From Rhodospirillales bacterium (lineage in GTDB: Bacteria; Pseudomonadota; Gammaproteobacteria; Steroidobacterales; JAHEKG01): a DNA stretch of 33,302 bases. The stretch lies in the NCBI GenBank assembly GCA_024638475.1, contig JAHEKG010000008.1:1-33302 (forward strand), written 5' to 3'. Position 1 is the first letter of the stretch. Every line of letters begins with the position of its first letter. Below, piece after piece: positions 16,124 through 22,996 of this stretch. Under the pieces are notes generated by a model that worked only from the letters and a program-made list of their open reading frames with translations, was not told where the DNA came from and made no database searches. Position numbers and translations under genes: made by a program.

Positions 16124-17152
16124 TTATTTAACATAAGGCATCACGTCCCGCGCGAAGTGCTCCGCCTGGTTCACGGACGCCGTGATCCGCTCACCGTGGG
16201 GGTGGTCCACATCGGATCCGCCGAGAATATAGACGTGATCCAGTCCTAGTTCGATGAGCGCGGAGAGCCTCTCCCGGCACTTGCCCGGGGGGCCGGCGAT
16301 CGTAAACCAGTCGACAAACTCCTCGTCTACCAGGTCCAGGTGGCTGCCCTGGTTCTGCGCGTGCCGCTGCATGTCGTACTCGGTCTTGAGCTTTATGGCG
16401 AGCGGCTTTAACTCGGGCGGCAGGTGATCCACCGGCGCGTGCTTCATGCCGGCGAAGTGGGCGACCAGTCCGGCGATGGTTCGCGCCAGCGTCAGCGCCC
16501 TTTTTTCATCCGGATCGCAAACCAGGTTGATGTAGGCGCCGACCTGGATGGAGTCGCGACGCCGGCCCGTTTCGGCCAAACGTGCATGGAGCGTGTCGAG
16601 TGCCCACTTGACCTGACTCGCCGCGCTGCCTACCGCGAAACTGACCCGGTCGGCCACATCGGCGGCCATGCGAATGGTCTTCGGCCCCGTGCAGGCCACA
16701 TCCACCGGTACGGGTGGGATGACCTCGGGGTCGATCCAACGCATCCGCGAAGGGTAGCCGTCGAGGTCGACGACTTCGCCCCGCACATAGGCCTGAATCG
16801 CGGTGATGCACTCGCGCAGCTCCTTGGTGTTGGCCTGCCGTCGACCGATATGCGCAGCCGCGGAGTCGCCCCGGCCGATGCCGCAAATGGCCCGGCCACC
16901 GGATTCCGCCTGTAGGGTCGCGATTGCGGAAGCCGTCACCGCCGCCACGCGGGTGACCGGGTTGGTGACGCCGGTGCCGAGCTTGAGTGTGCTGGTCGCC
17001 GCGGCCGCTAGGCTGAGCTGCCCGTAGGGGTCGGAACTCAGGTTCTGGGTGTCGGGAGTGACTAAGACGTTGAAGCCCATGTCTTCTACCCGGCGTGCCA
17101 GCTTGGCGGTGTAGCCAGGCGACGGCTCAAAGACCATTCCGAATTCAGTCAT
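16124..17152 (-). CDS. LLM-class, probably F420-dependent oxidoreductase
   Basis: The 342-residue protein is a luciferase-like (LLM) TIM-barrel enzyme. It begins MTEFGMVFEPSPGYTAKLARRVEDMGFNVLVTPDTQ, has the LKLGTGVTNPVTR strand-loop and the GRAICGIGRGDSAAAHIGR motif, and ends with a glycine-rich phosphate site (GLDHVYILGGSD). Family members reduce or oxidise substrates with F420 or FMN. The IGRGDSA pattern and the methylene-H4MPT-reductase-like layout favour F420. The gene is divergent from cofD with only 84 bases between start codons, so shared control with F420 synthesis is likely. The substrate is unknown. That it uses F420 rather than FMN is inferred from family and location. Confidence 0.87.
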   Translation of the reverse strand: MTEFGMVFEPSPGYTAKLARRVEDMGFNVLVTPDTQNLSSDPYGQLSLAAAATSTLKLGTGVTNPVTRVAAVTASAIATLQAESGGRAICGIGRGDSAAAHIGRRQANTKELRECITAIQAYVRGEVVDLDGYPSRMRWIDPEVIPPVPVDVACTGPKTIRMAADVADRVSFAVGSAASQVKWALDTLHARLAETGRRRDSIQVGAYINLVCDPDEKRALTLARTIAGLVAHFAGMKHAPVDHLPPELKPLAIKLKTEYDMQRHAQNQGSHLDLVDEEFVDWFTIAGPPGKCRERLSALIELGLDHVYILGGSDVDHPHGERITASVNQAEHFARDVMPYVK

Positions 17153-17236
17153 GCCGGTGGATATTGCGTAAAGGGGGGTGGATCGCCATGATAAAAGTCA
17201 GCCTATTCGTTGCGACAGCTTGCCGAGTACCGATCC

Positions 17237-18244
17237 ATGATAGACGAGGTTAAAGACGGCGTCGCCCCGTTTGGCAAGCCACCCCGGGTAGTCGCCTTAT
17301 CGGGGGGCGTGGGCGGTGCCAAGCTTGCACTCGGCTTGGCGCGTACGCTACCCGGGCATGAACTCATGGTCGTCGCCAACACGGCCGATGACTTCCATCA
17401 CCTGGGTTTGCGGGTCTCACCGGACATCGACACGCTGCTCTACACCCTAGCCGACTTGAATAACCCGGATACAGGGTGGGGGCAGCGCAATGAGACCTGG
17501 TCTTTCATGGATGCCTTGACGACGCTGCGCCCGGACAGCCGTTGGTTCAACCTCGGCGACCGCGATCTGGCTACCCACCTGGTGCGAACAGCGCAGTTGG
17601 AGCAAGGCGTTGCCTTGAGCAACGTGACCCGATTCCTCGCGGAGGCCTTCGGGATCACTGTTCAGGTGGTACCGATGTGCGACGAGCCCGTCGCGACGCG
17701 GGTCCAAGTCGAGCTGGACGGGGAGCAAGTCTGGTTGCCTTTCCAAGAATATTTCGTGAAGTGGAAGACCGAGCCGCCGGTAGCAAGGGTGGACTATGTC
17801 GGCGCCGAGTACGCAACGGTACCCGCACCGGTGCGTACGGCGTTGGCGGGCGAGCACCTCGACGCGGTGGTGATCTGCCCCTCCAACCCGTACCTCAGCA
17901 TCGACCCGATTCTGGCCGTGAGTGGTATGCGGGAGTTGATCGGCAATGCCCGCGCCCCCGTTGTCGCGGTTTCGCCCCTGGTGGCGGGGCGTGCCATCAA
18001 GGGACCCACGGCCAAAATGATGACCGAAATGGGGTTGAGCCCGGATGCACGGCGCATCGCCGAGCACTATGGGGGTATCATTGACGGATTCGTTCTCGAC
18101 AACGCCGCCGAAGGCGAACGACGCGACATCGAAGCCATGGGTATCAAGGTCATCCTCACCAACACGATCATGAAATCGCTACAAGACCGCATCGCCTTAG
18201 CGGGAACCGTGTTGCGGTTTGCGCGGGCACTGGCCGATGCATAA
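17237..18244 (+). CDS. cofD: 2-phospho-L-lactate (or phosphoenolpyruvate) transferase of F420 synthesis
   Basis: CofD (335 residues) joins the GDP-activated phospho-C3 unit made by CofC to the deazaflavin Fo, giving F420-0 or dehydro-F420-0. Diagnostic motifs are VVALSGGVGGAKLALGLAR near the N-terminus, NTADDFHHLGLRVSPDIDTLLYTL in the Fo-binding region, and ICPSNPYLSIDPIL. The track begins at a TTG at 17210; I use the ATG at 17237. The gene heads the cofDCGH block, with cofC starting 8 bases before its stop. The bacterial homologue in Actinobacteria is called FbiA. Whether the C3 donor is phospholactate, PEP or phosphoglycerate cannot be told from this sequence alone. Confidence 0.95.
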   Translation: MIDEVKDGVAPFGKPPRVVALSGGVGGAKLALGLARTLPGHELMVVANTADDFHHLGLRVSPDIDTLLYTLADLNNPDTGWGQRNETWSFMDALTTLRPDSRWFNLGDRDLATHLVRTAQLEQGVALSNVTRFLAEAFGITVQVVPMCDEPVATRVQVELDGEQVWLPFQEYFVKWKTEPPVARVDYVGAEYATVPAPVRTALAGEHLDAVVICPSNPYLSIDPILAVSGMRELIGNARAPVVAVSPLVAGRAIKGPTAKMMTEMGLSPDARRIAEHYGGIIDGFVLDNAAEGERRDIEAMGIKVILTNTIMKSLQDRIALAGTVLRFARALADA

Positions 18245-18917
18245 CGGGCGGCCCGCTGTGCAGGTACTGGTGCCGGTCAAACCGCTAACGGATTCGAAGC
18301 TGCGCCTAGCAACGCTGCTAACGCCTGCGGAGCGTGCGGAGTTCACCTTGCGGATGCTCGAGGATGTGCTTGCCAATCTCGCCGGGACACCGACCATTGC
18401 GAACGTTGCAGTCGTCAGCAGCGACCCGGATATATTGCATCTCGCGAGCCAGCGCGACGCCCGGGTCATTGTGGAAGCGGCCGCCTCCCCGCCGAGCGAC
18501 GATGCGCTCAATGAGGCGTTGGCGTTCGCCGCGGGCCAGCTGCCCGGCGCGACGCCGCTGATGGTGGTGCCGGGCGATGTGCCGCTGGTCGATTCCACCA
18601 CCTATGCGGCGGCTATCGAGGCCTGGCCGGATGGTATCGGTGCTGTCAGATCCCAGGATGGTGGTACGAACGCCCTATTGAGCCCACAGCCCGGGGCCAT
18701 CCCGTATCGTTTCGGGGCCGACAGTCTCGAATTGCATCGCGCAGCGGCGGAAGCCAGGCAGCTACCCTTCCACATCATGGAATATCCGCTGTGGGCAAGG
18801 GATATCGACTCGCCGGACGACCTCGTTTGGCTCGCTCAACACGGCAGGCGTTGCAGTAGCGCTGAGTTCGCCGAGCAACTGCTGGTTGCCAAGGACATCC
18901 TGAAGCGCAGCGCATGA
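18237..18917 (+). CDS. cofC: phospho-C3 guanylyltransferase of F420 synthesis (CofC/FbiD)
   Basis: This is a 226-residue nucleotidyltransferase with the CofC motifs VLVPVKPLTDSKLRLATLL (nucleotide and phosphate binding), VPGDVPLVDSTTYAAAI (metal-binding Asp region) and DGGTNALLSPQPGAIPYRFG. It uses GTP to activate a three-carbon phosphoacid for CofD. Different lineages use 2-phospholactate, phosphoenolpyruvate or 3-phosphoglycerate, and I cannot assign which. The ATG at 18237 overlaps the end of cofD by 8 bases. The TTG start in the track is unnecessary. Its stop overlaps the cofG start as ATGA, so the genes are translationally coupled. Confidence 0.94.
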   Translation: MHNGRPAVQVLVPVKPLTDSKLRLATLLTPAERAEFTLRMLEDVLANLAGTPTIANVAVVSSDPDILHLASQRDARVIVEAAASPPSDDALNEALAFAAGQLPGATPLMVVPGDVPLVDSTTYAAAIEAWPDGIGAVRSQDGGTNALLSPQPGAIPYRFGADSLELHRAAAEARQLPFHIMEYPLWARDIDSPDDLVWLAQHGRRCSSAEFAEQLLVAKDILKRSA

Positions 18918-20185
18918 ACGACCACGATTGGCTCAAAGCGCCGTTGGCGGAACTCTGCGAGCGTGCCGATACTATCCGCAATGACGGATTCGGCAATTTA
19001 GTGACCTATTCGCGCAAGGTCTTCGTACCGTTGACGATGTTATGCCGCGACGTCTGCCATTACTGTACCTTCGCCCAAACACCGCGGCACCTTGCCGCGG
19101 CGTTTCTGCCGCCGGAGCAGGTGATGGACATCGCCTTACGGGGCAAAGCCGCGGGTTGTAAAGAGGTGTTGTTCACGCTCGGCGACAAGCCGGAGCTGCG
19201 CTATAAAGCAGCGCGGGACGCCTTGGATGAATTGGGTTACGCGACGACCCTTGAATATGTCGCGGCGATGGCCGAACGCGTGGTCGAAGAAACGGGCCTG
19301 TTGCCTCATCTCAACCCTGGGGTTCTGTCGGCAGATGACTACCGTCGCTTGCGCCCCTTTGCGCCGTCGATGGGATTGATGCTGGAGTCCGCGGCCGCTC
19401 GCCTCTGTGAACAGGGTCAACCCCACCACGGGTCGCCCGACAAGGTGCCCGAGGTTCGCCTAAACAGCATCGCCGAGGCCGGACGGGCAGGTGTGCCGTT
19501 GACCACCGGTTTGCTGGTGGGTATTGGTGAGACGCGTGCGGAGCGCATCGAAAGCCTCCAGGCGTTGCACGCCATTCATGCGCAGTACGGGCATATTCAA
19601 GAACTGATCATTCAGAATTTCGTTCCCAAGGCAGCGACCAAAATGCATGCGGCGCCCGCACCCGACTTCGACGAGTTGCGGTGGACCATCGCCGTGGCGC
19701 GGCTGATGTTTGGGCAGCAGATGAGCATTCAAGTACCGCCGAACCTGAATGCTGGTCGGCTGCGTGAGTTAGTGGCCGCGGGGGTCAACGATTGGGGCGG
19801 GGTTTCGCCCATCACGCCGGATCATGTGAATCCGGAAGCGCCGTGGCCGCACCTCGAAGAGCTCGCTGCCGAGACCAAGGCGGCGGGAAAGCATTTGATC
19901 GAACGCCTAACGATCTATCCCGCTTACATTCACGATGCGGAGCGCTGGTTGGATCCCGGCTTGCGTCCGAGGGTGCTGAAGTGGACGGATGCCGATGGTT
20001 TGGCGCGCGACGATCACTGGGCCGCCGGGCAAGCCCAGGGCGAAAAACCTCAACCGCCAAGCCAAGCGTGCAGGTCGCAGAAACAAAGCCTATTGCAAAA
20101 AGCCCGCGAGGGCCTGGGCTTCAGCGAAGCCGAGACGGTGGCGCTGTTCAGGGCCCGCGGTGATGAATTCGACGAGATTTGGTAG
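18914..20185 (+). CDS. cofG: Fo synthase subunit CofG carrying a CofH-type linker helix
   Basis: This radical-SAM enzyme has a CxxxCxxC motif at C44, C48 and C51 (CRDVCHYCTFAQTPRH). Other CofG signatures are EVLFTLGDKPELRY, LLPHLNPGVLSADDY, GLLVGIGETRAERIESL and NDWGGVSPITPDHVNPEAPWP. With CofH it makes the deazaflavin Fo from tyrosine and 5-amino-6-ribitylaminouracil. At 423 residues it is long for a stand-alone CofG. The last ~60 residues are a polar linker followed by KAREGLGFSEAETVALFRARGDEFDEIW. That resembles the helix expected at the N-terminus of CofH and in the linker of fused FbiC. The ATGA overlap with cofC fixes the start. It ends at TAG 20183-20185. Confidence 0.93.
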   Translation: MNDHDWLKAPLAELCERADTIRNDGFGNLVTYSRKVFVPLTMLCRDVCHYCTFAQTPRHLAAAFLPPEQVMDIALRGKAAGCKEVLFTLGDKPELRYKAARDALDELGYATTLEYVAAMAERVVEETGLLPHLNPGVLSADDYRRLRPFAPSMGLMLESAAARLCEQGQPHHGSPDKVPEVRLNSIAEAGRAGVPLTTGLLVGIGETRAERIESLQALHAIHAQYGHIQELIIQNFVPKAATKMHAAPAPDFDELRWTIAVARLMFGQQMSIQVPPNLNAGRLRELVAAGVNDWGGVSPITPDHVNPEAPWPHLEELAAETKAAGKHLIERLTIYPAYIHDAERWLDPGLRPRVLKWTDADGLARDDHWAAGQAQGEKPQPPSQACRSQKQSLLQKAREGLGFSEAETVALFRARGDEFDEIW

Positions 20186-21261
20186 CCGACCAGCTTAGAA
20201 GGGAGGTCAACGGCGAGACGGTGGCGTATGTTGTCAACCGCAACATCAACTACACCAACGTGTGTACTTATAAATGTACGTTTTGCGCTTTCTCCAAAGG
20301 CAAGACGCACGAAGATTTGCGCGGGGCGCCTTACCTCATCGATTTCGATGAAATTATCAGGCGCAGTGAGGAGGCATGGAGTCGGGGCGCTACCGAAGTC
20401 TGTATGCAGGGCGGTATTCACCCGGATTTTACTGGCGAGACCTACGTAGAGATTTGTAGAGCGGTCAAGGCCGCCGTCCCGGACATGCATGTGCACGCGT
20501 TCTCGCCCCTGGAAGTTACCCAAGGCGCAGCCACGTTGGGCATTCCGGTACCGAGGTTCTTGACGAATTTAAAGGCAGCCGGACTGGGTACACTGCCGGG
20601 TACGGCAGCCGAGATTCTCGATGATGAAGTTCGCGCTACCCTGTGCCCCGACAAAATCAATACCCAACAGTGGCTGGATGTGGTGGCCGCCGCGCACGAT
20701 CTCGGTATGCCGACGACCGCCACGATCATGTTTGGTCATATGGAAAGGCCCGAGCATTGGGCCCGACATCTGGCGCGGCTGCGGGCACAGCAACTGGCCA
20801 GCGGCGGCTTTACGGAATTCGTGCCGTTGCCCTTCGTGCATATGGAGGCGCCGCTATACCGCCGAGGCCATGCGCGGCCGGGGCCGACGTACCGAGAGGC
20901 CGTGCTGATGCATGCCGTGGCACGGTTGGTCTTGCATCCGGTGATCACGAACATCCAGGCGTCGTGGACCAAATTGGGGCCGGAGGGGGCAAGTCACGTT
21001 TTGAACTGCGGTGCCAATGATCTCGGCGGCACGCTGATGAACGAATCGATTTCCAAAGCCGCGGGCGCCGGCCACGGACAGGAACTACGACCCGAACGCA
21101 TGGAGGCTTTGATCGCTGCTGCGGGCCGGATTCCGCAGCAGCGGACGACGTTGTATCAACCCGTGCCGGCCGAGCGGCGGCAGGCATCGTTCGGCGCCGA
21201 GCCGGTCCAGCCGGTCGTTAATCGCCCACTGCGGCGCCTGACGGGTCAGCCGAGGTTGTAG
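20179..21261 (+). CDS. cofH: Fo synthase subunit CofH, N-terminally short
   Basis: This radical-SAM partner of CofG joins tyrosine to 5-amino-6-ribitylaminouracil. Motifs are VVNRNINYTNVCTYKCTFCAF with ligands C29, C33 and C36, then CMQGGIHPDFTGETY, HVHAFSPLEV, TATIMFGHMERPEHW, PLPFVHMEAPLY and NIQASWTKLGPEGA. The only start near the beginning is a TTG at 20179, overlapping the cofG stop by 7 bases and lacking a clear ribosome site. A GTG at 20221 is the other option. Typical CofH has roughly 25-30 residues before this point; here that helix lies in the cofG frame. The gene may therefore be the second half of a frameshifted fbiC. Confidence 0.93.
   Translation: MVADQLRREVNGETVAYVVNRNINYTNVCTYKCTFCAFSKGKTHEDLRGAPYLIDFDEIIRRSEEAWSRGATEVCMQGGIHPDFTGETYVEICRAVKAAVPDMHVHAFSPLEVTQGAATLGIPVPRFLTNLKAAGLGTLPGTAAEILDDEVRATLCPDKINTQQWLDVVAAAHDLGMPTTATIMFGHMERPEHWARHLARLRAQQLASGGFTEFVPLPFVHMEAPLYRRGHARPGPTYREAVLMHAVARLVLHPVITNIQASWTKLGPEGASHVLNCGANDLGGTLMNESISKAAGAGHGQELRPERMEALIAAAGRIPQQRTTLYQPVPAERRQASFGAEPVQPVVNRPLRRLTGQPRL

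Positions 21262-21289: not shown

Positions 21290-22992
<1,703 letters not shown>

Positions 22993-22996
<4 letters not shown>

Follow-up and report, generated by a model that had tools for sequence, protein, structure and literature searches.

FbiC is the enzyme that builds the core of F420, a redox cofactor. Where it treats these enzymes, a 2021 review (PMC8498797) states that archaea and certain bacteria have functioning CofG and CofH as separate proteins, and assigns the fused FbiC to Proteobacteria; it also relates that the two FbiC domains act independently and that their intermediate diffuses (Philmus et al. 2015, as reviewed there). Here we compare with these systems a locus in which cofG and cofH are read in two overlapping frames. 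It lies within a window (the whole stretch of DNA analysed) of 33,302 nucleotides, contig JAHEKG010000008.1, and was described in an earlier note, made from the sequence alone, as looking like a fused FbiC split inside a linker helix. We conclude, with a probability of about 0.8, that the locus is a single fused fbiC gene (FO synthase) broken by a net loss of 4 nt, whether the origin of this loss is real or artefactual.

The cof genes of the window

The features of the locus are collected in Table 1; the coordinates, the frames, the TTG start and the 7-base overlap given in the earlier note were found on re-checking to be as described. cofD is the first gene of an operon-like run cofD-cofC-cofG-cofH, and cofE is found elsewhere in the same genome. 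Regarding the divergently transcribed LLM oxidoreductase, its best NCBIfam matches are F420-dependent LLM families, all below cut-off. The source genome is a draft (384 contigs, 82% complete, 2.4% contaminated), and no second CofH copy able to compensate was detected above the family cut-off in this 82% complete assembly. Rfam and tRNA scans of the window gave no matches. An ORF on the minus strand (21290-22996) probably encodes a membrane protein; a 15-bp imperfect repeat (21296-21329) gives it a C-terminal tail rich in glycine.

Table 1. Position of the cof genes, the junction elements and the divergent oxidoreductase gene in the window
Feature	Position	Strand	Description
LLM (luciferase-like) oxidoreductase, F420-dependent family type	16124..17152	-	PF00296 176 bits; divergent from cofD
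cofD	17210..18244	+	2-phospho-L-lactate transferase; TIGR01819 302 bits, cut-off 257
cofC	18219..18917	+	2-phospho-L-lactate guanylyltransferase; TIGR03552 140 bits, cut-off 105; 4-nt overlap with cofG
cofG ORF	18914..20185	+	N-terminal FbiC half; 7,8-didemethyl-8-hydroxy-5-deazariboflavin synthase domain
cofH ORF	20179..21261	+	C-terminal FbiC half; 5-amino-6-ribitylaminouracil-tyrosine 4-hydroxyphenyl transferase domain
cofG/cofH overlap	20179..20185	+	TTGGTAG, 7 nt; putative cofH TTG start on cofG TAG stop
Break	20180..20181	+	TG in place of the two codons of all fused relatives; net -4 nt
Shine-Dalgarno-like run AAGGGAGGT	20199..20207	+	inside CofH frame; anti-SD duplex -12.0 kcal/mol

The cofG frame extends from the ATG at 18914 to the TAG at 20183-20185 and its product is a member of the CofG family (TIGR03550, 459 bits for a cut-off of 213), with the radical-SAM cysteines present as CRDVCHYC, a CX3CX2C motif. 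The cofH frame differs from that of cofG and has its putative start at TTG 20179. Its product is a member of the CofH family (TIGR03551, 499.5 bits for a cut-off of 374) and also carries a CX3CX2C motif (CTYKCTFC), but it matches only positions 22-345 of TIGR03551, about the first 21 model positions being missing, and positions 44-369 of the 374 of NF005609. The complete N-terminal helical bundle that characterises a stand-alone CofH is not present in the window CofH. On the bifunctional CofGH model NF006687 (849 positions) the two products are complementary, CofG covering positions 46-431 and CofH positions 514-846; the score required of a single polypeptide (above 1018 bits) is reached by neither half (576.6 and 549.7 bits separately), whereas intact relatives score 1130-1150.

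The junction compared with fused relatives

In the same order, nearly every full-length CofH match belongs to a single open frame, about 780-1150 aa long, and corresponds to a fused FbiC, the short CofH-matching frames being mostly at contig edges. The fused state was also observed in named contigs from Acetobacteraceae, other Pseudomonadota, Vicinamibacteria and Dehalococcoidia. Among the class genomes, the order genomes and the named contigs, 92 fused loci were counted. All relatives with the G-H junction on the contig have one fused frame, except for a few separately broken FbiCs and true cofG/cofH pairs, and the two-frame overlap of the window was not found in any relative from the order, the class or the named contigs. 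A tree of 126 CofH domains places the window CofH within the fused clade. Judged from its linker and helix sequence and from this phylogenetic place, the locus belongs to the fused FbiC/CofGH type.

Several side observations concern the fused genes themselves. The genomes G163, G078, G684, G713 and G314 each have a pair of complete or almost complete fbiC copies, located on separate contigs. On pSymA of Sinorhizobium meliloti R28, an 807-aa fused FbiC (L256:2353-4776) is annotated just as "cofH", a gene name that hides the fused or split state. Vicinamibacteria/Acidobacteria and Dehalococcoidia FbiC sequences (L051, L055, L056, L061, L068, L072, L073, L077, L099; L062-L065, L075, L078, L083, L091) nest among proteobacterial ones in the CofH tree, which suggests lateral transfer.

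The fused junction aligns without gaps in 82 distinct relatives over LFxARGxxFxxV-xx-AADxLRxxV, and in each of the 82 the final Ile column of the CofG frame and the initial Val column of the CofH frame are separated by exactly two residues. In the window, ATT (20177-20179) is followed by two bases and then by GTA (20182-20184). It should be noted that two placeholder residues had been set at the break in the window row beforehand; counted without gaps, the Phe codon in LF and the Ala codon in AD are 38 nt apart in the window compared to 42 nt in the relatives, which yields the same net loss of 4 nt without these placeholders. The register of fused FbiC proteins from which the earlier note reasoned, two codons being expected where the bases TG are left, was therefore correct, and the alignment of the relatives bears out the small deletion, such as 4 bases, that it proposed. 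On either side, the sequence agrees with the fused consensus right up to the break, and the window halves retain all 221 columns that are invariant across 33 fused FbiCs. The break is thus either very recent, with no time for decay, or not real.

To place the break within the protein, the fused relative L003 was modelled with AlphaFold2 from a 33-sequence alignment (mean pLDDT 88, pTM 0.89). The model has helices at residues 375-385, 392-399 and 404-421, followed by the CofH barrel, and a poorly ordered interdomain stretch before residue 375, with the lowest confidence at residues 361-370. The window break corresponds to a position after residue 409, six residues into the 18-residue helix 404-421. 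Since TIGR03551 starts at L003 residue 391, the broken helix belongs to the CofH domain and is not mere linker, and the three modelled helices constitute the predicted N-terminal bundle of CofH itself. According to this model, the C end of the window CofG consists of the interdomain linker and, from the start of the CofH domain, about two and a half helices. The fused relatives and the model together support the proposal that a fused FbiC was split within the helix ahead of the CofH core. They also confirm that the cut falls inside one helix; this helix is nevertheless part of the CofH bundle and not a linker helix, the flexible interdomain linker being elsewhere. A search for a solved CofH structure gave MqnE (6xi9) as the only close sequence match. 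The codons at the break encode the last helix before the CofH barrel, and the break is confined to a single genome, the background being a fused one.

Separate pairs, disrupted genes and translation signals

True cofG-cofH pairs do occur in Pseudomonadota, despite the description of this group as having the fused FbiC (PMC8498797). They were found at L145 (G900, a closed genome) and L136 (G487), both of the same class as the window, at L144 (G939), of the same phylum, and at L254, a plasmid of Leisingera aquaemixtae with a cofG-H-D-C-E operon whose first two genes share 4 nt. The CofH proteins of these pairs hold the whole helical bundle, as in the Leisingera protein ...RAILEMALEGGEVSEAEGIELFRATGADAEAVYAVADTLRRRANGERVSFVVNRNIN, and L144 and L145 are split from all other CofH domains of the 126-domain tree by a branch of support 100. 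As the window CofH lies inside the fused clade and the true pairs lie outside, the state of the window is derived from a fused gene. The existence of separate pairs in Pseudomonadota would agree with descent of the locus from an ancestral pair of separate genes, but this tree position and the fused-type sequence kept at both ends up to the break leave such a descent with virtually no likelihood. The earlier note had counted relatives with separate genes and complete helices against its reading: such pairs exist, but only distant ones with the bundle whole on CofH, and the derived break proposed here stands.

Disrupted fbiC genes were observed in other drafts of the same order, with a frame break in the middle of CofG at L146 (G672), two frame breaks at L140 (G092) and an in-frame TAA in CofH at L141 (G126). 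Regarding S. meliloti, the pSymA sequences of R11 (L255) and R28 (L256) differ over 5.9 kb by 7 gapped bases and 0 mismatches; indels alone, as from long-read errors, spread the R11 fbiC over several frames. Public records thus seem to contain indel errors in fbiC. To gauge the background rate of frame breaks, 380 kb of the draft genome were aligned to the proteins encoded in 1.2 Mb of the closed relative G069 and to the flanks of 80 other loci. Of the conserved coding sequence, 67.9 kb aligned, and no frame break other than that of FbiC was seen in it. A second apparent break at 14.2 kb was discarded, as it came from an antisense alignment over pntA-pntB. In a large survey of frame transitions, unclustered cases were treated as indel mutations or sequencing errors (PMC3711429).

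In agreement with the remark that cofH has no clear ribosome site, TTG 20179 shows an anti-SD pairing of only -3.0 kcal/mol, badly placed, compared to about -6 to -8 kcal/mol for several neighbouring genes. The much stronger run AAGGGAGGT sits about 13 nt ahead of an in-frame GTG (20221) and encodes part of the conserved LRREV peptide; its Shine-Dalgarno-like strength is probably a coding coincidence, a by-product of encoding RREV. When 4-nt deletions were simulated at random positions in the junction helix of the 82 relatives, a start codon was found at most 10 nt from the new stop in 68% of cases, overlaps of this kind arising in 66-68%, and the start-stop overlap is consequently no evidence for coupling. 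A classification as a translationally coupled pair, by a stop-start overlap conserved across several genera, was considered and rejected, the arrangement being a singleton with an overlap such as chance gives.

Origin and consequences of the break

Three options had been raised at the outset for the split: a recent fission, a programmed or corrected frameshift, and an assembly error. Programmed -1 (or +2) ribosomal frameshifting would yield a full FbiC from the locus, and the two frames do overlap from the CofH-frame TGA at 20164 to the CofG-frame TAG at 20183, so that a -1 slip would join them. However, a slippery heptamer of the type X XXY YYZ was not found in the overlap, and shuffled sequences fold as well as the mRNA surrounding the site does (z = +0.93), which makes this mechanism unlikely; moreover, the site is not conserved, the fused relatives being in one frame, and the -1 joined product would be one residue short within a conserved alpha helix. 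Programmed frameshifting is accordingly unsupported and very little credence can be given to it, whereas a recent real indel and an assembly error are both plausible. If the break is a consensus or assembly error, the real genome has an intact fused fbiC, and we regard this as a serious prospect, at somewhat under even odds. It is favoured by the fragmentation of the source genome, by the integrity of all invariant residues on either side of the break and by the occurrence in public records of fbiC frames broken purely by indels, as in R11 compared to R28. By contrast, the deficit here is of 4 nt and outside any homopolymer, which sets it apart from the usual long-read error; the contig sizes suggest a short-read assembly, the break is 13 kb from the nearer contig end, and its isolation in the conserved coding sequence speaks mildly against a poor assembly, although it is compatible with a single error. 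On balance, we consider a genuine and very recent indel in the sampled strain as somewhat likelier than a consensus or assembly error.

The comparisons demonstrate the fused ancestry, the extent and location of the deficit and the intact residues on either side of it; concerning the consequences of a genuine break, translation and activity of the two halves are what we infer from the arrangement. Ribosomes completing CofG would terminate at TAG 20183-20185, and a fraction of them might start again at the overlapping TTG 20179 or, with lower likelihood, at GTG 20221. CofG would then bear an extra helical tail and CofH would lack its N-terminus, FO synthesis being reduced or lost. A partial FO-synthase function of the broken locus is possible because the two FbiC domains reportedly operate on their own and their intermediate diffuses. 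The lack of decay and the start codon that coincides with the stop would be consistent, too, with a functional fission, in which separate CofG and CofH proteins are produced by termination-reinitiation at TTGGTAG and FO is still made. In the part of its account given to separate proteins and independent domains, the review (PMC8498797) lends some support to such a fission, as do the overlap of coupled type at the upstream cofC-cofG junction, the presence of cofC, cofD and cofE in the genome and the full conservation of the invariant residues. We nevertheless consider it unlikely: the natural pairs (L145, L144, L254) break before the bundle, whereas the window CofG retains roughly two and a half helices of it, the TTG start has no usable Shine-Dalgarno, the start-stop overlap is expected by chance, and the orphan tail is uneroded where an established fission would show erosion. 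A more specific version, a very recent functional fission in which CofH arises by termination-reinitiation and borrows its N-terminal helices in trans from the CofG tail, the two chains forming an interlocked complex, appears improbable to us.

Taken as a broken fused gene, the locus is as it stands one more disrupted FbiC beside several in public drafts, and it serves as a caution, since, in a single draft genome, a fused gene with a broken frame can be mistaken for a separate cofG-cofH pair. Were the break both real and functional, it would mean that FbiC tolerates a cut inside the CofH fold, with a fission caught just after it happened.

With the fused FbiC/CofGH proteins of Pseudomonadota and Actinomycetota (NF006687) the window shares the domain order, the radical-SAM cysteines, the linker sequence on both sides and the 221 invariant residues, and with S. 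meliloti R28 pSymA the gene order cofD-cofC-fbiC; these relatives have one frame, whereas the window has two through the net 4-nt deficit. Genes with programmed -1 frameshifting, such as dnaX, likewise have an overlapping -1 frame, but their hallmarks (slippery heptamer, stimulatory structure, conservation) are all missing at the window site. Like L140, L141, L146 and S. meliloti R11, the window contains a fused FbiC broken by an indel or stop in one genome, although those breaks are at other sites, also within catalytic domains. Two adjacent ORFs are found in the window as in the separate pairs of Leisingera (Roseobacteraceae) and of the related genomes L144, L145 and L136, and in L145 and Leisingera the two ORFs likewise overlap. 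However, the separate pairs break before the CofH helical bundle and keep a full CofH N-terminus, whereas the break of the window lies inside the bundle, and L144 and L145 form a distant clade, whereas the window CofH lies among fused sequences. Separate and fused CofG/CofH are both already known, and the disrupted fused gene of the window is an ordinary occurrence and not a new gene arrangement.
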